DNA of 50,237 nt. Origin: Iphinoe sp. HA4291-MV1 (GTDB lineage: Bacteria; Cyanobacteriota; Cyanobacteriia; Cyanobacteriales; Nostocaceae). Location: the NCBI GenBank assembly GCA_019359415.1, contig JAHHHH010000056.1:1-50237 (forward strand), given 5' to 3'. Shown piece after piece: positions 11,113 through 35,781 of the stretch. The notes below the pieces were generated by a model. That model was not told where the DNA came from. It ran no database searches and saw only the letters and a program-made list of their open reading frames with translations. Both the position numbers and the translations under genes were made by a program. Within the stretch, counting starts at the first letter, position 1. Every line of letters starts with the position of its first letter.

Positions 11113-14100
11113 ATGACTCATAACATATACGCGCTGCTGATTGGCATTGACAAATACCTTAGCCCAGTTCCTCCCTTAAATGGTTGTGTCAATGACATCA
11201 TAGCTATAAAAGAGTATCTGGAAGGACGGATTGCTACTGAGGGCTATCAGCTTCATATACGCACACTCTTAAACCAAGATGCGACTCGTCAGGCAATTAT
11301 TGATGGGTTCCTGCAGCATCTATGTCAAGCCCAGAGCAACGATTTCGTTCTTTTCTATTACAGCGGTCATGGTTCTCAAGAACAAGCACCACAGGAATTT
11401 TGGCACTTAGAACCAGATCGACTCGATGAAACCTTGGTCTGTTATGACAGTCGCCATGCAGGAGGCTGGGATTTAGCAGATAAAGAATTGGCGAAATTGA
11501 TTGCTGAAGTTGCAGCAAAAGACCCCAATATTACTATTATCCTGGATTGCTGTCATTCTGGTTCTGGCACAAAAAACCCGCTACAAGAAACGGGGATACG
11601 CCGCATTCGTACAGATAAACGTGAGCGACCATTAGATAGCTTCATTTTTTCACTCGAAGATTTAGAACAACTGTCTGCATCCCGTAGTCTGGAAGAATCA
11701 CCCACTGGTTGGAACATACCCAAAGGTCGTCATATTCTCTTTGGGGCTTGCCGAGATAGTGAAGAAGCTAAGGAATATAATGGAGACGGTCAACAACGGG
11801 GAGCTTTTTCCTATTTTTTGTTGGAAACATTGCGAAATAATGGAAAACTGACGTATCGAGACTTATTTAAACAAGCTAATGCTTTAGTCCGCAGCAAAGT
11901 GACAACTCAGTCCCCTCAGTTGGAGGTGACTCATGCAGAAGATGAAAACCGATTTTTCCTTGATGGTGCGATCGCAGAACGTACCCCCTATTTCACTGTA
12001 AGTCATGACAAGAACTATGGCTGGGTCATTGATGGTGGTGCTATCCACGGAATGAAAAGTGCTTCTGGTAGTGAAACAACTTTACTCGCACTGTTCCCAA
12101 TAGATAGCAACATTGAGGAATTGCACAACCCGTCTAAGTCCATTGGTGAAGCTGAAGTCACACAAGTACTGCCATCGCTAAGTAAGGTTAATACCAGTAG
12201 TGTTGAAAACTTGACTTCTGAACGCACCTTCAAAGCTATTATCACTAGCTTACCATTGCCACCTTTAGGAATTTACTTTGAGGGAGATGAAGCAGGTGTC
12301 AATCTAGCACGCCAAGCATTGCAAACAGTTGGTTTTGACAACAAACCCTCCACCTATGTTCGTGAAGAACAGAAACTCACTCAAGCACAGTTTCGCCTAT
12401 TGTGTCGTCATGAGCAGTATTTGATTGCTCGACCCGCAGATGACCGACCTTTGGTGGATCAGATAGATGGTTACACACCAGAGAATGCAAAAAAAGCGAT
12501 CCAACGCTTAGAACATATAGCCCGTTGGACGACGATTTCTGAACTCTCAAGTCCCGCGACCACTCAGATTCAACCTGGTCATATCCAGATGCAACTTTTG
12601 TTTGAAGATCAGGACATCTCTCAATCCAATCAGATGCGTTTGGAGTACAAGTACAGGGATAATGAATGGCAACCTCCAACTTTTCGACTTAAACTGACTA
12701 ACAATAGTCAAAAGCCACTTCACTGTGCTTTAGTCAATCTTACAGACCTTTACGCTGTCAACGCTCCGTTTTTTGAAGCAGGTAGTATCAGACTAGAGCC
12801 AGGGAAAGAAGCTCTGGCTCTGGATGGACAAGATTTGCAACTCGAAGTACCAGACAAGTTATGGGAACAAGGAATTACCGAGTACAAAGACATTATTAAA
12901 TTAATTGTAAGCACTACCGAGTTTGATCCTCGCTTACTTTCTCAGGAAGCACTTGACGTTCCTCGACCCCCAAAAAGAGATTTACCATCGCCGAATCAAG
13001 GTATACTAGATCGTCTGATGAATCGCGTTCAAGAGCGTGATATCACACCCAGAAGTAACGGAAGATTTGACGATTGGTACACTGAGGAAGTTACCATCAT
13101 CACCGTTCGCCCCTTGGATGCTACTTCAGTTTCTCCCACACAACAGAAGGAATTAGAAACTGGTGTCAGATTACAGCCGCATCCCAGCTTACAAGCTAAC
13201 GTTCGTTTAACAACAATACCACAGACAAGTCGAGACTTAGGAAATAAAATTTTACCGCCTATCTTACGAGAAAATCCTGAACTCATCCAAGCCTTTCAAT
13301 TTACTAGCAGCCGAGGTACAGACCCAGGATTGAGTGTGCTGGAACTTAGTAATGTGCAAGACCACACAGTTGTGACTTCAGATGCACCCTTAAAATTGTT
13401 GGTTGACACGACTTTAGGTAAAGATGAACACCTTTTACCTGTTGCTTACAACGGTGAGTTTTTCCTCCCCTTAGGTCGAGGAAAAACAAATCAAGACGGA
13501 AAGACTGAAATTGAGTTACAAAGATTGCCTGCTCCGGTTAGTGAAGGTCGTCGCAGCTTGCAAGGGTCTATTCGCATTCTATTTCAAAAAGTGATCAGCG
13601 AGAAGCTGGGGTTGGAATGGCGATATCCCATCCTTGCAGTGGCTTCTGTTGGCAATGATGCATCAGTAAAATACGAGACTGATGAAGTACAAATTAAACT
13701 ATTGGTAGCGCAAGCAAAGCGGATTGTCCTCTACATTCACGGGATTATTGGTGATACCAAAAGTTTGGTTTCCAGCATTCATCAGCCCATCATTGGAGCG
13801 GATGGACAAGAACGTTCTATCAGTCAGTTCTACGACCTAGTTCTCACATTCGATTACGAGAACCTGAATACTTCAATTGAAGAAAATGCTCGGAATTTGA
13901 AAAAACGATTAGCAGCAGTGGGTTTGGGAGCAAATCATAATAAACTCCTGCACATTGTAGCTCACTCAATGGGAGGACTCGTTTCCCGTTGGTTTATTGA
14001 GCGAGAAGCAGGAAATCAAGTTGTCCAACACCTGATTATGTTAGGTACACCAAATGGCGGTTTTCCTTGGTCCACTGCTCAAGATTGGGTAACACTGGCT

Positions 14101-14553
14101 CTCGGAATTGGACTTAATAGCCTCTCTACAGTGGCTTGGCCTGTGAAAGTGCTGGGGAGTTTAATCAGTGCAATAGAAACTGTTGATATATCACTAGATC
14201 AGATGAAGCCCAACTCTGATTTTCTTAAGACTTTAGCACAGAGTGATGACCCTGGTATTTCTTACTCGATTGTTGCTGGTAACACATCGATTATTCCTGC
14301 AGCCGTGCAGCCACAAGGAGAAAAATCCAGTTTGCTAGAACGACTCATGCAAAGCTTATTTGGGAAAGTCGTTGCTTTACCTTTCTTTGGACAGCCAAAT
14401 GATATCGCTGTCACTGTCCATAGTATCAAGAATGTTACAGAAGGACGTTCACTTCCTCCTCAAATTCAAGAAGTGGCTTGCGACCACTTGACCTATTTTC
14501 ATCACCCAGCAGGGTTAAAGGCTTTGATTGCAGCTTTTGCACAGCAAAAATAA
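11113..14553 (+). CDS. Caspase-fold protease fused to an alpha/beta-hydrolase
   Basis: 1146 residues. The N-terminal 290 residues form a caspase/metacaspase (orthocaspase) domain: start YALLIGIDKY, catalytic His86 in YYSGHGSQ, and catalytic Cys in LDCCHSG (Cys147). A long middle region (about 300-860), with stretches resembling beta-rich modules, follows without a family I can name. The C-terminal 280 residues are a lipase-like alpha/beta-hydrolase: strand plus oxyanion region VLYIHGIIGD (His876-Gly877), nucleophile elbow AHSMGG (Ser952), then LIMLGTPNGG. There is no signal peptide, so both enzymes should be cytoplasmic. Orthocaspases cleave after Arg/Lys in known cases. The next gene downstream is another caspase protein. 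The 3' end, including the stop codon, is tandemly duplicated (25-bp period, 14535-14581). RBS AAAGGT; ATG start. Confidence 0.88.
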   Translation: MTHNIYALLIGIDKYLSPVPPLNGCVNDIIAIKEYLEGRIATEGYQLHIRTLLNQDATRQAIIDGFLQHLCQAQSNDFVLFYYSGHGSQEQAPQEFWHLEPDRLDETLVCYDSRHAGGWDLADKELAKLIAEVAAKDPNITIILDCCHSGSGTKNPLQETGIRRIRTDKRERPLDSFIFSLEDLEQLSASRSLEESPTGWNIPKGRHILFGACRDSEEAKEYNGDGQQRGAFSYFLLETLRNNGKLTYRDLFKQANALVRSKVTTQSPQLEVTHAEDENRFFLDGAIAERTPYFTVSHDKNYGWVIDGGAIHGMKSASGSETTLLALFPIDSNIEELHNPSKSIGEAEVTQVLPSLSKVNTSSVENLTSERTFKAIITSLPLPPLGIYFEGDEAGVNLARQALQTVGFDNKPSTYVREEQKLTQAQFRLLCRHEQYLIARPADDRPLVDQIDGYTPENAKKAIQRLEHIARWTTISELSSPATTQIQPGHIQMQLLFEDQDISQSNQMRLEYKYRDNEWQPPTFRLKLTNNSQKPLHCALVNLTDLYAVNAPFFEAGSIRLEPGKEALALDGQDLQLEVPDKLWEQGITEYKDIIKLIVSTTEFDPRLLSQEALDVPRPPKRDLPSPNQGILDRLMNRVQERDITPRSNGRFDDWYTEEVTIITVRPLDATSVSPTQQKELETGVRLQPHPSLQANVRLTTIPQTSRDLGNKILPPILRENPELIQAFQFTSSRGTDPGLSVLELSNVQDHTVVTSDAPLKLLVDTTLGKDEHLLPVAYNGEFFLPLGRGKTNQDGKTEIELQRLPAPVSEGRRSLQGSIRILFQKVISEKLGLEWRYPILAVASVGNDASVKYETDEVQIKLLVAQAKRIVLYIHGIIGDTKSLVSSIHQPIIGADGQERSISQFYDLVLTFDYENLNTSIEENARNLKKRLAAVGLGANHNKLLHIVAHSMGGLVSRWFIEREAGNQVVQHLIMLGTPNGGFPWSTAQDWVTLALGIGLNSLSTVAWPVKVLGSLISAIETVDISLDQMKPNSDFLKTLAQSDDPGISYSIVAGNTSIIPAAVQPQGEKSSLLERLMQSLFGKVVALPFFGQPNDIAVTVHSIKNVTEGRSLPPQIQEVACDHLTYFHHPAGLKALIAAFAQQK

Positions 14554-14581
14554 ACTACATTTTGCACAGCAAAAATAAACT
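14535..14581. repeat. 25-bp-period tandem duplication over the stop codon of the caspase-hydrolase gene
   Basis: TTTTGCACAGCAAAAATAAA occurs at 14535 and again at 14560. Each copy contains the end of the gene (AQQK and TAA). The protein itself is unaffected since the first copy supplies the stop. Confidence 0.85.
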
Positions 14582-14596
14582 TTTGCGTAACCACTT

Positions 14597-14677
14597 AGGG
14601 TGCGTTATGGACATTAGTCAAGAGCGCACCGAAAATCTAGGATGGTGCGTAAGAGAGCGGCATAACACACCCTACCA
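14597..14677. repeat. Small dispersed inverted-repeat element
   Basis: TAGGGTGCGTTATG near 14597 and CATAACACACCCTA near 14663 are inverted repeats (13 of 14 match) about 80 bases apart, with internal GCGCACC/GGTGCGT words. Elements bounded by GGTGCGTTA/TAACGCACC are frequent in cyanobacterial intergenic DNA. No coding capacity. Confidence 0.5.
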
Positions 14678-14753
14678 GATGAGATTTGAGGTGATTAAAT
14701 CATTTGTGTGTACACCGTAGCCCCGCAAGCGGGAAGGGGTTTAGGGGGTGGGG

Positions 14754-15261
14754 CAATACGGTTCGGATAAGCTCTTAAAGCTCTTGATACCCGTGGATGA
14801 GTGTTTGATACCCGTGGATGAGTGTTTGATACCCGTGGATGAGTGTTTGATACTCGCGGATGAGTGTTTGATACTCGCGGATGAGTGTTTGATACCCGTG
14901 GATGAGTGTTTGATACCCGTGGATGAGTGTTTGATACTTGTGGATGAGTGTTTGATACTTGTGGATGAGTGTTTGATACTTGTGGATGAGTGTTTGATAC
15001 TCGCGGATGAGTGTTTGATACCCGTGGACGAGTGTTTGATACTCGCGGATGAGTGTTTGATACTCGTGGACGAGTGTTTGATACTCATCCACTCGCAATA
15101 TGGTTCAGATAACCCCGCAGGCGCTCGCCAGTCGGAGACTGGCTCCCTGAACTCCGTTCAGGGGAGGCACTTCGTGCCTCGGGCACAGCGACGCAGTTTA
15201 CACGCCCCACTAATGGCGCACGTGGCGAGGGTGACGGCTCACCGTTAACCGAACCGTATTG
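14754..15261. repeat. 508-bp composite repeat bounded by 17-bp inverted repeats
   Basis: CAATACGGTTCGGATAA (14754-14770) and its near-perfect reverse complement TTAACCGAACCGTATTG (15245-15261; 16 of 17) bound a block containing the 21-bp minisatellite, a third copy of the same word (CAATATGGTTCAGATAA, about 15097-15113) and a string of short hairpins at about 15127-15180 (CCAGTCGGAGACTGG, CCTGAACTCCGTTCAGG, GAGGCACTTCGTGCCTC). A fourth copy of the 17-mer is at 23976. Confidence 0.7.
14786..15079. repeat. 21-bp minisatellite, 14 units
   Basis: Fourteen head-to-tail copies of GATACCCGTGGATGAGTGTT (plus T). Units differ at few sites (CCCGT, CTCGC, CTTGT or CTCGT; GGATGA or GGACGA). Their order is 3 CCCGT, 2 CTCGC, 2 CCCGT, 3 CTTGT, then mixed singles, so neighbouring units tend to be identical. 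Because 21 is a multiple of three, several frames stay open on both strands (LIPVDEC heptads on the plus strand), but no start signal or conserved protein suggests translation. Confidence 0.9.
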
Positions 15262-15422
15262 AAAGGCAATGGGCAAAAGCTCGCAATGGAGAAGCTCCCC
15301 TCCTTGTTCTCCCTACTCCCTGCTCCCCCGTTTTTACAAGAGTTTTAGGACTTCCTGTGAAAAGTCAGGATATGACTTTTACTTTTCTCACAACTGCAAT
15401 TTATGTGAAAGGAAAGTTATTT

Positions 15423-18400
15423 ATGTCTCAATATCAGTTTCATCGAAATTTTGCGGTTATTATCGGTATCAATAATTATAAAAACGGCATCCCATCTCTA
15501 GCTACAGCAGTTCCAGATGCTCATAAACTTGCTCATGTGATCCAAGAGCAACATAGAAAAATTAAAGATAAATATCAAAAACCAAATCAATATGAAGTTC
15601 AATTACTTTTGAATGAAAGAGCTAATCTTTACAATCTGAATCAGTTAATTGAAAACTTCAAAAAAGGACAGATAAGTTTTGACAAAGAAAAAGTGAAGGT
15701 TACCGAGAATGACCGCGTCCTCTTCTACTTTGCTGGACATGGAATCGCCTTAGATGCTTTAGAAAATCAAGAAGGACCAGTCGGTTATCTCATTCCTCAA
15801 GATGCCAAATTAGAAGATAATAGCACCTATTTGCCGATGCAGGATTTACATGATGCTCTCAATGCACTACCATGTCGGCATATGTTAGCTATTTTAGATT
15901 GTTGCTTTGCTGGAGCTTTTCGTTGGGCGAGTCTCAAGCGAGATATTGTACCTCGACTTAAGGTTTATAAAGAACGATATGATCGCTTTATTAGTGATAG
16001 AGCTTGGCAAGTTATTACCTCAGCAGCCGATGACCAAAAAGCTTTAGATTTCTTGGGACAACGGGGAAAAGTACAAGATGGAAACGAGGTTCACTCTCCC
16101 TTTGCCAAAGCTCTTTTTGATGCGCTACGTGGAGATACAGAAGAAAGTGCTGACTTAAACAAAGATGGTATTGTTACAGCAACCGAACTTTACTCGTATC
16201 TTAGGGATCGAGTAGAAATCCTCACAGAAAATCATTACAAAAAACAAACTCCAGGTTTGTGTCCCCTCAGAAAACATGATAAAGGAGAATTCATCTTCTT
16301 ATTACCTGAGTTTGACCGAGATAAATTAGAAGATGCTCCACCATTGATTCCAGAAAATAATCCGTACCGAGGATTGCAATCTTACGACGAAAAAGATAGC
16401 AGCTTGTTTTTTGGTAGGGAAAATCTCATCACACAGCTTTATCAGCATGTCATTTCTGAACAGCAAGCTTTGACAGTGGTACTGGGTGCTTCTGGAACAG
16501 GAAAATCTAGTTTGATGAAAGCTGGTTTATTACCGCGCTTGCGTCATTCTCAGGAGCATCAATTTCAGATTTTACAACCAATGCGACCAGGGGAAAGTCC
16601 CTTGCAAGCACTAGCACAAATCTGTTCACCAATTGCAACTGCAATCACTGCTGAAGAATTCGCAAAAGATGAATACGCCTTAGCAACTATTATTGAAAAC
16701 AGGTGTAAGGCTTATCCCAAAACTCAATTATTACTGCCAATTGACCAGTTTGAAGAGTTGATAACCCTGTGTAAGAGTGAGGAGGAGCGAGAGCAATTTC
16801 AGAAATTGATAAAGAATGCGATAACCCAATTTTCCAAACATATCGATGTAGTTATTACCCTGCGACTCGACTTTGAAGCACAGTTTCAAAATTCTGTTCT
16901 TAAAGACTTTTGGAATGATGCTCGGTTTGTTGTACCACCCATGACTCAGGATGAATTCCGCGAAGCCATTGAGAAACCAGCATCGGAAAAAGTGGTGTAT
17001 TTCGATCCTCCTAGCTTAGTGGACGAATTGATCAATGAAGTCGTACAAATGCCAGGTGGTTTACCTTTGCTTTCTTTCACCTTAAGCGAATTGTACTTGA
17101 AGTATTTAGGCGATCGCACGAGAAATAACCGCGCTTTAACAAAGAAAGATTACGAAGAATTGGGAAGAGTCGTTGGTTCTCTAACCAAGCGTGCGAACCA
17201 GGAGTATGATCGCTTAGTTGCAGAAGACCCCGCTTATAATGATACGGTGCGGCGGGTAATGTTGCGAATGATTTCATTACAGGGTGGAGAGTTAGCACGG
17301 CGACAAGTTCCTAAGTCGGAACTGGTATATCCTGATAAGGATGAAACCGAGCGGGTAAATAAGGTTCTCAAATGTTTTTCTGAAGCTCGCTTAATTGTTG
17401 AAGGTTCTAATTCTCAAGGTGAACCTTATGTTGAGCCAGCCCATGATGCTTTGGTGCAGGGTTGGGATAAGATGCTGAAGTGGAAAAAAGAAGAAGAGGA
17501 AAATTTAATTTTGCAACAGCGGCTAACGCCTGCGGCTGAGGAATGGAACAATATAAAAGATAAGGAAAAAGAACCTAATTCTTTGGTGAAGACATGGGGA
17601 CAAGCAGAGTCTTTTGCAATTGGAAAAATACAAACTTGGCGACGTAATTGGCAACGCAAAAAGCGAGAAAAAACCAAAACTTCCAAAGTTTCAAGTGTAA
17701 AATCAATAGCTTACCTTTGGGATGATGATCCTCGGATTGAGCAATTAAATCAAGTTCTTGATTCTAAAGATAGCTGGCTTAACTGGATTGAAGATAACTT
17801 TGTTCGGCGAAGTATCCTACAAAGAAGTAAAAATACTTATAGATTCAGGACGTTTCTGACAGTAGTCATACTGGGATTGAGCGGGTTAACTTTTTGGGCA
17901 TTAATGAATCTGAGACAAGCAACGCTCAATCAAATGTTGACTAATAGTGAGTCCGCAGATGGTAAATTGGGTTCAAAGCAACCGATTTTAGATGCTTTGA
18001 CTAATAGTTTATCTGCTGGAGAAACCCTTAATGGAGAAAGCCTTAAAAATAAGTTGCTGTTGCAAGTACACCCACCAAAAGAAGACGAAAAAAATAAAGT
18101 CATTAGAACCCTGCGAAAAGCAGTTTACACAGTTAAAGAAGAGAACAGAACAAATGGCTTTCCTAGTGGGGTTGAAAATATTTTTTGGGAGAAAAACGGT
18201 AAGCTACTGGTAGTTAGTACTGAAAATAATGGCACTGTTCAAGTATGGGACAAACAAGCCAAAAAGTTAGCTGAGTTACCAGGAAATCGATACTCAGTTA
18301 CACAAGTCATTTTTAGTCCGGATGGTAGTCAACTTGCTATTGGGACAAATAATGGCAGTCTTATGTTGTGGAATTGGCAAAATCAACAGCAGCCAAAAGT

Positions 18401-19976
18401 ATTACAAAGAAATTTATGTGAAGATACAAATGATAATTCATGTCAGATCACAAGCCTCCGTTTTAACCAAGATGGCAGTCAAATTGTAAGCGTTGCCCAA
18501 AACGGTATTACCCGTTTATGGAATTTATCTAGCAACCAACCTCGGCAATTTCAGATACCTCAAAACAAAATCATCACAGCTGGTTTCCAACCCAATGGTC
18601 AGTTATTGTTCTTTACTACAACTCCAGATAGTAAAACTGTGAGTGTATTTGACTCCTTTTTGCGAGAGTTAGGTAAAACCAAACTTCCAGAACAGGTTGA
18701 TACAATAATCCTGAGTCCCAATGGTGAGCAAGCCGTAATTGTCTACCGTTCATCTACAAGCACCGTGAATAGTGAAAGTTCTTTGTGGAATTGGCGGCAA
18801 AAGAAATTGCAAAAGTTGCTAGGTCAGAACTTCGAGATTCACTTTAGCCGAGATGCTAACAAGCTTGCTGCTACAGGATTCAATGACGGTACTATACGCT
18901 TATGGGACTTGAACAACAGCTACAAAATGAGGGAAATCAAAGGACATCAAGGTCAAATCGCTAGTCTCAATTTTCGCTCAGATGGTAAAGTTTTTGCTAC
19001 TGCGAGTGCTGATGGTACTCTTCGTCTTTGGACTTTGCAAGAACAACAGCCACGTCCATTGCAAAAACTTGCACGCAAAGTTAACAGTCTCACATTTAAC
19101 CGGGATGGCACACTCATAGCAACTCAAGCAGTAGATAGAACTATCCATTTGTTAAATGTATCTGGCAAGCAAGAAAATCAGTTTAACGGTCAGTACCCTA
19201 TCTTCAATAACCTGCGTTTTAGCCCTGATGGTAAGCAACTGGCAACTCTAAGCAAAGAAGGAAGTGTCGGTATATTAGATTTGTCAAGTCAGCAGTACAG
19301 AGAATTTACCGGAAAATATGACTCTGGCAGTAACCTAAGTTTTAGTCCTAATGGTAAGCAACTAGTAGTTACCGGAAATGAGAATAATAACAAAGTAGTC
19401 CATTTACTAGATGTATCCTCACGCAAGCGAAATAATTCTTTTTCTTATGATGAAAAGATTGGCATTAACAATGTGATTTGGAGGAAATCAGACGACAAAA
19501 TCCTGTTAGTTGGTGTAGCTGTCAGTAAAGCCGACCAAAGTATTGTATTGTTGGATGTCAAAACAGGAAAACAAATACAGACTATTGGCGATCTAGGTGG
19601 AGAATCAGAATTTTCCACTATCAGTTCTAACAATGATGGTAGCTTATCCGCTTTTGTCCAAGAGGACGATACTGTCGATACTGTCAGTTTGTGGTACATG
19701 GATGGAACCAAGATGGGAGAATTAAAAACTCCTAAGGACAAAATCAAAAGCGTTGTTTTGAGTCCTGATAGTAGTATACTGGCGACCATTGACAACGACG
19801 GCACTGCTGAGTTGTGGGAACTTGGTAAATTAGATGCACTGCTTGCCAAAGGTTGCGATCGCATTGGTGACTATTTGAATAACCCCAATGTTAGTCAGAG
19901 CGATCGCCATCTCTGTGATCACGTACCACTTCCTTCCCCGAATAATGGTGACACAACCTCATCCACCAAGAAGTAG
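15423..19976 (+). CDS. Caspase - STAND ATPase - WD40 repeat protein
   Basis: 1517 residues from ATG 15423, which has GGAAAG upstream (an earlier GTG at 15357 adds implausible sequence). Order of parts: caspase domain about 1-270 with His106 (YFAGHG) and Cys161 (LDCCFAG); a short DLNKDG acidic loop near 240; an AAA/STAND NTPase (nSTAND1 type) about 315-700 with NPYRGLQSYDEKDSSLFFGR, Walker A GASGTGKSS from residue 355 and Walker B LLPIDQFEEL; a charged linker; one transmembrane helix at about 808-830 (FLTVVILGLSGLTFWAL); then about 650 residues of WD40-type blades (FSPDGSQLAIG, RLWDLNN, TASADGTLRLW). WD40 repeats usually form the sensing or scaffold part, with the ATPase as switch and the protease as output. 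The single helix could tether it to a membrane, with the caspase and WD40 parts then on opposite sides. Confidence 0.9.
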   Translation: MSQYQFHRNFAVIIGINNYKNGIPSLATAVPDAHKLAHVIQEQHRKIKDKYQKPNQYEVQLLLNERANLYNLNQLIENFKKGQISFDKEKVKVTENDRVLFYFAGHGIALDALENQEGPVGYLIPQDAKLEDNSTYLPMQDLHDALNALPCRHMLAILDCCFAGAFRWASLKRDIVPRLKVYKERYDRFISDRAWQVITSAADDQKALDFLGQRGKVQDGNEVHSPFAKALFDALRGDTEESADLNKDGIVTATELYSYLRDRVEILTENHYKKQTPGLCPLRKHDKGEFIFLLPEFDRDKLEDAPPLIPENNPYRGLQSYDEKDSSLFFGRENLITQLYQHVISEQQALTVVLGASGTGKSSLMKAGLLPRLRHSQEHQFQILQPMRPGESPLQALAQICSPIATAITAEEFAKDEYALATIIENRCKAYPKTQLLLPIDQFEELITLCKSEEEREQFQKLIKNAITQFSKHIDVVITLRLDFEAQFQNSVLKDFWNDARFVVPPMTQDEFREAIEKPASEKVVYFDPPSLVDELINEVVQMPGGLPLLSFTLSELYLKYLGDRTRNNRALTKKDYEELGRVVGSLTKRANQEYDRLVAEDPAYNDTVRRVMLRMISLQGGELARRQVPKSELVYPDKDETERVNKVLKCFSEARLIVEGSNSQGEPYVEPAHDALVQGWDKMLKWKKEEEENLILQQRLTPAAEEWNNIKDKEKEPNSLVKTWGQAESFAIGKIQTWRRNWQRKKREKTKTSKVSSVKSIAYLWDDDPRIEQLNQVLDSKDSWLNWIEDNFVRRSILQRSKNTYRFRTFLTVVILGLSGLTFWALMNLRQATLNQMLTNSESADGKLGSKQPILDALTNSLSAGETLNGESLKNKLLLQVHPPKEDEKNKVIRTLRKAVYTVKEENRTNGFPSGVENIFWEKNGKLLVVSTENNGTVQVWDKQAKKLAELPGNRYSVTQVIFSPDGSQLAIGTNNGSLMLWNWQNQQQPKVLQRNLCEDTNDNSCQITSLRFNQDGSQIVSVAQNGITRLWNLSSNQPRQFQIPQNKIITAGFQPNGQLLFFTTTPDSKTVSVFDSFLRELGKTKLPEQVDTIILSPNGEQAVIVYRSSTSTVNSESSLWNWRQKKLQKLLGQNFEIHFSRDANKLAATGFNDGTIRLWDLNNSYKMREIKGHQGQIASLNFRSDGKVFATASADGTLRLWTLQEQQPRPLQKLARKVNSLTFNRDGTLIATQAVDRTIHLLNVSGKQENQFNGQYPIFNNLRFSPDGKQLATLSKEGSVGILDLSSQQYREFTGKYDSGSNLSFSPNGKQLVVTGNENNNKVVHLLDVSSRKRNNSFSYDEKIGINNVIWRKSDDKILLVGVAVSKADQSIVLLDVKTGKQIQTIGDLGGESEFSTISSNNDGSLSAFVQEDDTVDTVSLWYMDGTKMGELKTPKDKIKSVVLSPDSSILATIDNDGTAELWELGKLDALLAKGCDRIGDYLNNPNVSQSDRHLCDHVPLPSPNNGDTTSSTKK

Positions 19977-28366: not shown

Positions 28367-28386
28367 AAGATTGGGAATTGGGAATT

Positions 28387-28491
28387 GCCCATTGCCCATT
28401 GCCCATTGCCCCTTGCCCATTGCCCATTGCCCCTTGCCCATTGCCCATTGCCCATTGCCCATTGCCCCTTGCCCATTGCCCATTGCCCCTT
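28387..28491. repeat. Heptanucleotide array GCCCATT, 15 units
   Basis: Fifteen uninterrupted 7-bp units, GCCCATT with GCCCCTT at units 4, 7, 12 and 15, preceded by GGGAATTGGGAATT. This is the short tandemly repeated repetitive (STRR) type of heterocystous cyanobacteria. It lies between the M23 peptidase stop and the convergent ribE stop, ending six bases from ribE. Confidence 0.9.
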
Positions 28492-33167: not shown

Positions 33168-33725
33168 GGCAATCTTATCACTAGAGATTAGACAGCTTTA
33201 ACCAGAAAATAATCTGAAAAAAATATATAAGCTTTTTTAAGCTTTCATAAAAACTTTAAACATAACCTCCATAAAACGACATCTTGCTCATTTTCCAGCT
33301 CTTGCACTTGCAAACCATTGATAGCTTAACTGAACATTAAGCCTATAAACCATACCTATCATTTAGATTTTTTCGACATGAATTGAAAAAACTAACTCAA
33401 TTGGATGTATGCTTGGCAGACTCTCCCCTTTAACCACCTAATCGATTGCTTTGCTCAAGCATTCACAGCTTAACTATTGAATTTGATTTATGATAAGCAT
33501 AAATACTTAAGAACTGTTCCAATAAGGGAACCTGGATTTTCAATGATACTGGTTCTGACTGCAAATTGAGAAACTGTTAGACTTTTTTTAACTTGTAATC
33601 AAACACTATAATTCCGGGGTACTTAGAGGGTTGGGAAGTCTGATCAGAGTTAAAACTGACATAGTATTGGGAATTGGGAATTGGAAATAGGGAACAAAAG
33701 AGCTGGGAACTGGGAATCGAGCATT
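33168..33725. other. Intergenic region upstream of prs
   Basis: About 550 AT-rich bases with no gene. Contains AAGCTTTTTTAAGCTTT (33230-33246) near the prs promoter side. The last 60 bases before the heptamer array are GGGAATTGGGAATTGG-type low-complexity spacer, as at 28370. Confidence 0.4.
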
Positions 33726-33928
33726 GCCCGTTGCCCGTTGCCCGTTGCCCGTTGCCCGTTGCCCGTTGCCCGTTGCCCGTTGCCCGTTGCCCGTTGCCCG
33801 TTGCCCGTTGCCCATTGCCCATTGCCCATTGCCCATTGCCCATTGCCCATTGCCCATTGCCCATTGCCCATTGCCCATTGCCCATTGCCCATTGCCCATT
33901 GCCCATTGCCCGTTGCCCCTTGCCCATT
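33726..33928. repeat. Heptanucleotide array, 29 units in two homogeneous blocks
   Basis: Twelve GCCCGTT units (33726-33809), then fourteen GCCCATT units (33810-33907), then one each of GCCCGTT, GCCCCTT and GCCCATT. Same STRR family as 28387-28491. The sharp block boundary suggests two separate slippage expansions. It ends about 115 bases before the kinase gene start, so it lies in or near that gene's promoter. Confidence 0.92.
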
Positions 33929-34044
33929 CCCCTTGTCCCCCTTGACGGCTGTCAAAAGAAAGTTCAATCTACGGTGTCCGCTTGGAAACTATCCGTATCA
34001 TAGTAAAGTCCTCCTCTGTTGCTATTACATTCAATTCATCGACG

Positions 34045-35781
34045 ATGCAACCACCGATTACAACTGACACCGTCTTGCAAAACCGTTACCGGATCACTCA
34101 GACTTTGGGTCAGGGGGGATTCGGTAGAACTTATCTGGCTCAAGACCAAAGGCGCTTTAACGAACTTTGTGCAATTAAGGAATTAATTCCAACAGCAACG
34201 GCGGGTTACGCTTGGGAAAAGGCAAAAGAACTTTTTCAACGAGAAGCCGCAATTTTGTATCAAATACAACATCCACAAATACCTCAATTCCGAGAGAGAT
34301 TTGAGCAAGACCAGCGCTTGTTTTTGGTGCAAGACTATGTTGCCGGAAAAACGTATCGTACTTTATTGGACGAGCGTAAAGCTACTGAGAGCGCATTTAC
34401 AGAACAAGAAGTGTTACAACTTGTACGCTCTTTGTTACCAGTCTTAGACTATATTCATCATCAAGGAATTATTCATCGGGATATTGCACCGGATAATATT
34501 ATTCTACGAAAAGGCGATCGCTTACCAGTGCTAATCGATTTTGGGGTGGTAAAAGAACTAGCAACGAAATTGCAATCTCCGGATAACACAATGCCAGCAA
34601 CCACTGTAGGAAAATATGGCTACGCCCCTAGTGAGCAAATCCAGACAGGTCGAGCATATCCTAGCAGTGACTTATATGCACTAGCCGTCACAGCAATTGT
34701 ATTGCTGACTGGGAAAGAACCCCAAGATTTATTTAATGAACACCAATTGACTTGGAATTGGCAACACTGGGTTACAGTCAATCCACAATTTGCTTCTGTA
34801 TTGAATCGAATGTTAAGTCAAAAAGTGAGCGATCGCTATCAAAGTGCTACAGAGGTATTACAAGCATTACAAGCCCAACAACAACCAAATATTTCTACCT
34901 CTAATGTATCTAATATACAAACAATAGCCGTTGGACGCCCCCCTGAGGCGGCGCAACCATCTGCGTCTAATAAACCTAACTCAGTCATTCCACAACAGGA
35001 TAGCCGTTCAATCTTAGATAATCCCTTTGCAATTTTTGCAATTACCATTGTTGTCATTGTTGTCGCAGGATTTGGGTCTTGGGCGGTGGTCAGATCCATC
35101 CGTAGTCAGTCACAAGCAACACCAGAAACCGCAAATCCACAAACTTTCCCTTCACCTGTAATTCCTAATGGAACTGCATTAACTACACCCACATCGACAC
35201 CTACACCCACACCTACCAATAATGAACCTGATGTCTATAGCAAACGCCTAAATTTTGGAACATCTAACACTGCGAATGTTGATGGTACTATTAAAGCTAA
35301 TCAAATAATTCAGTACACATTTTCTGGTGAAGAAGGACAACAGTTAACTGTATTGCTTGCTCCAAAAGACAGTGTTTTGCTATCAGTTTTCGGTCCAAAT
35401 CAAGAACCGATTGATGATGCGGCTAAAGAGTTTTCATTCTATCAAGGAACATTGCCTTTTACTGGTAGATACATTATTCAGGTACGTCCTGTCCCAGAAC
35501 AGCCTCAAAGCAATTACAGTCTTAGCCTTGGATTAGAAAACCCAGTCAAACTTACACCCACACCCACAGACATCTCACCTTCACCTACACCCACAAACAT
35601 CTCACCTTCACCCACACCCACAGATATCTCACCTACTCCTACACCCACAGACATCTCACCTTCACCCACACTCACAGAACAGCCACCCATAGTTCCTCCT
35701 GTTGAGCAACAAAATAACCCGCCTACTGGTGAAACACCAAGCTCTGTTCCTGGTCAAACAGGCTCGCCGTCGAGGTTGTAG
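34045..35781 (+). CDS. Membrane-anchored Ser/Thr protein kinase with PPC-like extracytoplasmic domain
   Basis: 578 residues from ATG 34045. Kinase domain about 13-280: LGQGGFGRTYLA (glycine loop), AIKEL (Lys), IHRDIAPDNIIL (HRD with Asp and Asn), DFGVVK and GKYGYAPSEQ; all catalytic residues are present. A transmembrane helix follows at about 340-362 (IFAITIVVIVVAGFGSWAVV). Outside is a region resembling the bacterial pre-peptidase C-terminal domain (LNFGTSNTANVDGTI ... YTFSGEEGQQLTVLL ... LPFTGRYIIQVRP) and then a Thr/Pro tail built on the repeat SPTPTDI (about five copies). Similar kinases in cyanobacteria are thought to sense envelope signals. Substrate unknown. Confidence 0.9.
   Translation: MQPPITTDTVLQNRYRITQTLGQGGFGRTYLAQDQRRFNELCAIKELIPTATAGYAWEKAKELFQREAAILYQIQHPQIPQFRERFEQDQRLFLVQDYVAGKTYRTLLDERKATESAFTEQEVLQLVRSLLPVLDYIHHQGIIHRDIAPDNIILRKGDRLPVLIDFGVVKELATKLQSPDNTMPATTVGKYGYAPSEQIQTGRAYPSSDLYALAVTAIVLLTGKEPQDLFNEHQLTWNWQHWVTVNPQFASVLNRMLSQKVSDRYQSATEVLQALQAQQQPNISTSNVSNIQTIAVGRPPEAAQPSASNKPNSVIPQQDSRSILDNPFAIFAITIVVIVVAGFGSWAVVRSIRSQSQATPETANPQTFPSPVIPNGTALTTPTSTPTPTPTNNEPDVYSKRLNFGTSNTANVDGTIKANQIIQYTFSGEEGQQLTVLLAPKDSVLLSVFGPNQEPIDDAAKEFSFYQGTLPFTGRYIIQVRPVPEQPQSNYSLSLGLENPVKLTPTPTDISPSPTPTNISPSPTPTDISPTPTPTDISPSPTLTEQPPIVPPVEQQNNPPTGETPSSVPGQTGSPSRL

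Follow-up and report, generated by a model that had tools for sequence, protein, structure and literature searches.

In the Apaf-1 apoptosome, a STAND-WD40 receptor turns on an initiator caspase and then an executioner. This assembly is also mentioned in PMC7159879, passages of which describe VMAP (MoxR-vWA) ternary systems, where a caspase fused to the central protein is always accompanied by a neighbouring alpha/beta-hydrolase gene and proteolytic release has been proposed (Kaur et al. 2020, PMC7159879), and two-gene EACC1-caspase loci, where the caspase carries variable C-terminal domains, STAND among them. Passages of PMC12799240 describe nuclease–protease pairs in Avs1, Hachiman, Lamassu, DRT and Canu, and report that in Hachiman, AVAST and Canu the protease activates an effector made as a proenzyme. 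Passages of Kaur et al. 2021 (PMC8195603) place bDLD3-caspase genes in an operon with an AP-ATPase, a STAND-clade NTPase, and name an alpha/beta-hydrolase among the effectors of the same Death-like adaptor. Metacaspase-NACHT-WD40 proteins, known since 2012, are widely distributed; multi-metacaspase operons have been counted, cyanobacteria included, and WD40 repeats occur in 26% of cyanobacterial orthocaspases (operon section and passages of PMC3501461 and PMC8283722). Here we analyse two adjacent genes, A and B, in a stretch of 50,237 nucleotides (the window) from the cyanobacterium Iphinoe sp. HA4291-MV1 (contig JAHHHH010000056.1). A encodes a caspase joined to a lipase-type alpha/beta-hydrolase and B a caspase-STAND-WD40 protein, and comparison across genomes indicates that the two form a conserved pair.

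The pair departs from each described system in its parts. As opposed to the VMAP systems in the passages cited, the partner here is a caspase-nSTAND1-WD40 protein and the hydrolase carries a caspase of its own; VMAP is absent among the 25 of 65 families listed for B, which has nSTAND1, and the pair is flanked by hisA and csaB, the other window genes having been partly scanned. Relative to the Avs1, Hachiman, Lamassu, DRT and Canu descriptions, the STAND protein has a caspase in place of a trypsin, and the effector is a caspase-lipase, not a metallo-beta-lactamase-type nuclease. Such a nuclease, which with a caspase defines Canu, is found neither among the eight Pfam families of A, nor among the listed 25 of B, nor in hisA and csaB, and no Avs model is among the PADLOC matches of A (one) or B (three) at E ≤ 0.01. 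The EACC1-caspase loci described differ in that the partner here is a caspase-hydrolase, and scores of 50.6 and 64.3 bits fall far below the cut-off of 140 for that subfamily (NF047832). The bDLD3-caspase operons, as described, resemble A–B in combining a caspase protein with a STAND-clade NTPase, with coupling there by a Death-like adaptor domain, of which Pfam detects none in A. Metacaspase-NACHT-WD40 proteins have a layout like that of B alone; neither a caspase-lipase protein nor a partner of B is described in the operon section and passages of PMC3501461 and PMC8283722, raw operon tables aside. Compared with Apaf-1, B holds its caspase covalently in the receptor and its NTPase is nSTAND1, not an AP-ATPase; no homology is claimed.

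Searches of open-licence PMC full text, supplements aside, yielded no description of the A–B pair, and the source data of Kaur et al. may list such loci. The original prediction, made from the letters of the window, had claimed no precedent for this exact pairing; the claim is to be tempered, a caspase paired with an alpha/beta-hydrolase being already reported for VMAP (Kaur et al. 2020, PMC7159879). As far as these sources go, A–B is a variant, not a new kind, among known peptidase–NTPase conflict systems, with a proposed cascade that is specific and testable.

Architecture of genes A and B

Gene A (11113..14553; this and all coding features of the pair lie on the plus strand) encodes 1146 residues running from a caspase through a beta-rich middle to an alpha/beta-hydrolase, as defined by the open reading frame, Pfam and structure prediction of the beta content. 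The caspase (11128..11934) has a metacaspase fold, with His86 in GHG and Cys147 in DCC. It scores 83.4 bits against PF00656 (cut-off 21.4), and A scores 136.9 bits against the PADLOC ‘caspase’ model; with the His-Cys dyad, this would class A with peptidase C14 (caspase/orthocaspase) domain proteins. The middle (11965..13032; residues about 285–640, with limits of our own setting) is predicted to be beta-rich and has matches in A proteins of full and of short length; a comparison that barely probed the region gave it no fold of its own. The hydrolase (13708..14538) matches DUF7379 at 57.9 bits (cut-off 33) as well as lipases, and its lipase fold and conserved triad Ser952-(Asp1097)-His1125, with the Ser in AHSMGG and the Asp assigned from conservation, make it a lipase-type alpha/beta-hydrolase.

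Gene B occupies 15423..19976 (1517 residues; open reading frame and Pfam) from a likely start at ATG 15423, where relatives start; the longest frame begins at GTG (15357-19976, 1539 residues). Its caspase (15444..16262; His106/Cys161, or His128/Cys183 in the long frame) scores 57 bits against PF00656 (cut-off 21.4), with 34.6 bits for B in the PADLOC model, and its dyad would again indicate a peptidase C14 domain. Then follow a STAND NTPase of the nSTAND1 type (16362..17561; PF20703, 345.8 bits, cut-off 27.1), with Walker A GASGTGKSS (K383 of the long frame) and Walker B IDQFEE (D463), a membrane helix predicted by hydropathy (17850..17906, around residue 832 of the long frame) and a WD40 region, the sensor discussed below (18054..19856, limits set by us from Pfam and comparison with relatives). 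The original prediction had named both open reading frames and their shared direction, both His/Cys pairs, Ser952 in AHSMGG, the Walker motifs, helix and WD40 of B and a spacer of about 870 bp; all stand, the helix as a hydropathy prediction and the spacer as 869 bp with ATG 15423 as the start of B.

Linkage of A and B across genomes

Separate searches for A and B, followed by a comparison of their places, covered 60 relatives and, at thresholds of E ≤ 1e-80 for A and E ≤ 1e-50 for the N-terminal part of B, 388 genomes belonging to the order; the best two (A) or five (B) candidates per genome were scored, and partners elsewhere can be missed. The lists for the 388 genomes hold 60 A rows and 91 B rows, two G355 rows being pieces of one gene; the comparison in 60 genomes covers the 39 strongest A rows and 46 of 48 B rows, with G012:C164 and G007:C171 left out, so that an apparent lack of B in G012 there is an artefact. 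Among the 388 genomes, A occurs in 50, B in 61 and both in 41, where about 8 would be expected under independence. B starts between −50 and 3000 bp downstream, in the same orientation, in 28 of the 42 full-length A rows, in 3 of the 8 short ones and in 4 of the 10 fragmentary ones; random placement gives a chance of 5e-5 to 6e-4 per A row and predicts far less than one such case. The gap is at most 546 bp in 24 of the 37 unfused B-adjacent loci. A also stands with B in Methylomonas fluvii, where an opposite-strand open reading frame (L125:9528-10562) interrupts A and B stays open, in a metagenome-assembled genome of Anaerolineales, where B ends at the contig end, and, as a short A relative 126 bp from B, on a plasmid of Allocoleopsis franciscana PCC 7113. 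Linkage counts and the fusions described below rule out chance adjacency. Conserved synteny of the whole region, also considered, is unsupported, since flanks mostly differ: a flanking homologue (>35% identity, within 6 kb) is common to 38 of 741 locus pairs, many being WD40 paralogues.

In two loci, L041 (3057 residues) and L042 (3423 residues), caspase, middle, hydrolase, caspase and STAND lie in one open frame, with a low-complexity linker joining the A and B halves. Over 1684 columns the two fusion proteins share 36% identity. L041 is a single annotated coding sequence (WP_104910174.1) close to an IS1380 transposase on pNLP1, a plasmid typed as conjugative from a lichen Nostoc; the C-terminus of L041 is a periplasmic-binding-protein domain, and the B of L078 has WD40 plus such a domain. 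The A parts of the two fusions separate on the A tree, L042 as a long branch. As the genomes carry the same genus label (g7) and the loci have one flanking homologue in common, the fusions may not be independent. At L101:1098-6290, which neighbours a MoxR-like AAA gene, A is preceded in frame by 575 residues without a Pfam family and may be another fusion; comparison of these residues with the VMAP protein of L120 gave no similarity.

The two proteins also covary and keep their active sites. Distances among A proteins correlate with those among B cores (r = 0.70; 0 of 5000 permutations) and with those among sensors at r = 0.36, and shared ancestry can raise both values. The caspase His and Cys are retained in 81 of 81 distinct A proteins, a non-random set of which 40 loci were hand-chosen, partly for interest (fusions, large gaps, no B), and whose members were chosen for their resemblance to the caspase profile, a criterion biased towards intact caspases. 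In adjacent B proteins, the caspase His and Cys and the Walker Lys and Asp are kept in 39 of 39. Adjacency in many settings, two fusions, correlated distances and kept catalytic residues together argue strongly for the two-part module of the original prediction. Judged from sequence, the A–B pair is real, conserved and functionally linked, and its two genes very probably act as a single death or defence unit.

The lipase is not a constant part. A hydrolase is present in 66 of the 81 A proteins, with the Ser-Asp-His triad intact in 60; the Ser column holds Gly in three and Glu in two, and the His is Arg in one. The 15 A proteins without a hydrolase include L115, which ends with its contig. Among the 39 B-adjacent A proteins, that of the window included, the triad is intact in 28, the Ser is missing in 4 and the domain is absent in 7, with the caspase intact in all 39; the other 42 have 32 intact triads, 2 altered and 8 hydrolases absent. 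Loss or alteration of the lipase in 11 of 39 beside an invariably intact caspase points to the caspase as the constant output of A and to a dispensable lipase, so that, from these sequences, what stays constant in the pair is its proteases and its NTPase, and the lipase is common but optional. The proposal that the STAND protein cleaves A to release the lipase is, for this reason, too narrow.

The sensor of B is exchanged between close relatives. Against L044 and L045, of the same genus, the window B shows 78–97% identity per 100-residue step up to residue ~650–700 and 16–59%, mostly 20–40%, past it; the window A is 88–89% identical to theirs over caspase and middle. A is at least 75% identical in 25 pairs, 18 of which have a comparable sensor. 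Sensor identity of at most 35% accompanies a core identity of 68–91% in 8 of these 18 (5 of 15 without the short-tailed B of L047 and L052), in pairs that are not all independent and were prefiltered by shared four-letter words. In the pairs L053–L056 and L055–L107 the sensor is not swapped.

Proposed mechanism and alternatives

On balance, we lean towards A and B as one inducible death or defence module, with B the receptor and A the executioner. The WD40 region of B (joined or replaced in some relatives by a periplasmic-binding-protein domain) would recognise a trigger, presumably an invader, at or near the membrane. By analogy with known STAND, Avs1/Hachiman and Canu systems, nSTAND1 would bind nucleotide and oligomerise, and the clustered N-terminal caspases would turn active. 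The caspase of B might then cleave A or act in complex with it, and the metacaspase of A would be switched on, probably by processing in the linker between p20 and p10, in which all 31 aligned proteins retain Arg172. The lipase, where present, would be freed or unblocked to attack membrane lipids, and the cell would die or stop growing before the invader spreads. The caspase–hydrolase pairing and the proteolytic release proposed in passages of PMC7159879 make activation of A by B the most likely course by analogy.

More tentatively, this may be a two-tier caspase cascade, apoptosome-like, in which a caspase-STAND initiator with an exchangeable sensor feeds a caspase-lipase executioner and one signal destroys protein and membrane, A being plugged into caspase-STAND, CHAT-STAND, CHAT-VMAP and CHAT-TPR chassis. 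For cyanobacterial orthocaspases, whose part in cell death is under debate, this would supply a defined receptor, partner and testable output; proteolytically activated immune effectors would extend beyond nucleases and pore formers to include a caspase-lipase, and a natural fusion would offer a single-gene version for bench work.

Several observations weigh against a receptor–executioner module. No B lies within 3 kb downstream of 14 of the 42 full A rows, and about 34 of the 91 B rows, by hand count, have an A within 3 kb upstream. The gap is 0.66–2.66 kb in 13 of the 37 unfused loci, some with intervening genes, and in L064 the order is reversed, with B first. On a tree of 78 A proteins (without L115, L127 and L128), the B-adjacent label is clustered, at 16 changes with a shuffled mean of 26.5; these changes, at least 10 of them forced by well-supported branches, imply that the link has arisen or disappeared several times. 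Of the 81 A proteins, 21 have an altered lipase or none, L115 at its contig end included, and the constancy of the caspase carries the selection bias given above. Of the conserved positions, arginine fills 4 of 17 in stretches of low confidence and 8 of 177 elsewhere (p 0.013), a weak, post hoc test by which conserved arginines as cut sites in A are suggestive only. The genes flanking the pair, hisA and csaB, are non-defence genes.

A mixed caspase complex, in which the caspase of A activates or restrains B, the STAND protein is the output and the lipase is accessory, would explain why the caspase of A outlasts its lipase (81 of 81 against 21 of 81 absent or altered) and why the fusions place A N-terminal to B. 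We nevertheless think it unlikely, since in the analogous nuclease–protease layout, as described in passages of PMC12799240, the protease of the defence enzyme activates the upstream enzyme, and since a variable C-terminal sensor on B with a conserved A fits flow from receptor to effector better.

Comparably improbable is housekeeping or developmental proteolysis (protein or membrane turnover, cell differentiation, stress response) in place of defence. The hisA and csaB neighbours and the single full-length A in the window’s genome agree with it, as do the many named carriers of A that are cyanobacteria we take to be filamentous. Against it stand the patchy occurrence of A (50 of 388 genomes), its presence on plasmids, two of the A-carrying plasmids examined being typed conjugative, the mostly differing flanks, the swapped sensors and relatives of A in Pseudomonadota, Deinococcota, Chloroflexota, Actinomycetota and Bacteroidota. 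Independence of A and B, which the original prediction had allowed and by which adjacency would reflect only the commonness of caspase genes in these genomes, can point to each gene occurring without the other and to seven PF00656 matches in the window’s genome, but as a rule for the pair it is unsupported, and linkage counts, fusions and correlated distances refute it for the family, leaving it a negligible chance.

Other partners and spread of A

In several loci that lack B, a CHAT or caspase gene neighbours A. Without an adjacent B, A lies by a CHAT-nSTAND5 gene (L059, L102), CHAT-AAA_35 and AAA_35-WD40 genes (L073), CHAT-VMAP and MoxR-like AAA genes (L120), a TPR-CHAT gene with B 5.8 kb further on (L083) or a CHAT gene (L118); such CHAT-type neighbours occur in 6 of the 42 loci without adjacent B, neighbours having been scanned in part of the loci. 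L120 resembles VMAP systems, and A is thus probably of the VMAP hydrolase kind. Plasmid copies are found by CHAT-TPR in Anabaena sp. 90, two genes from a divergent CHAT gene in Rhizobium, and with a B-type caspase two genes upstream in Deinococcus. These contexts suggest that A could be a shared effector for several protease–NTPase receptors. Against a general CHAT or caspase rule, other neighbours are an AAA protein (L103, L121), a methyltransferase (L113), a nuclease (L124), a GTPase (L057), a Uma2 protein (L070) and a lysozyme (L076), and several A loci have no same-strand neighbour.

Some relatives stand in other company. The Chloroflexi A is followed by an APP1-like phosphatidate phosphatase gene (L112:3724-4773), which would encode a second enzyme acting on lipids. 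Large genes lie downstream in the short-A clade of L065, L067, L068 and L074; those of L065 (648 and 1142 residues) have no Pfam match, with DUF1822 upstream and TPR-CHAT further downstream. In Fibrisoma limi (L128:6965-11992), a caspase is fused to a GDSL lipase, an mpaB/Lcp oxygenase-like domain and DUF5995, by its domains a second kind of caspase-lipase fusion.

Spacer and repeats of the window

The spacer (14554..15422, by open reading frame limits) contains a 21-bp minisatellite of 14.4 copies over 303 bp (14784..15086), which makes up most of a low-complexity open reading frame at 14748-15248. As a mark of separate genes the spacer was rejected, the gap being 155 and 91 bp in the nearest relatives, L044 and L045. 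A promoter within it was likewise set aside: 9 of the 14 promoter-like matches are produced by the repeat itself and carry no weight as evidence. Elsewhere in the window, heptanucleotide arrays lie at 28384-28488 (ATTGCCC, 15 copies) and 33722-33932 (CATTGCC, 30.1 copies), and a 27-bp repeat array at 35555-35678.

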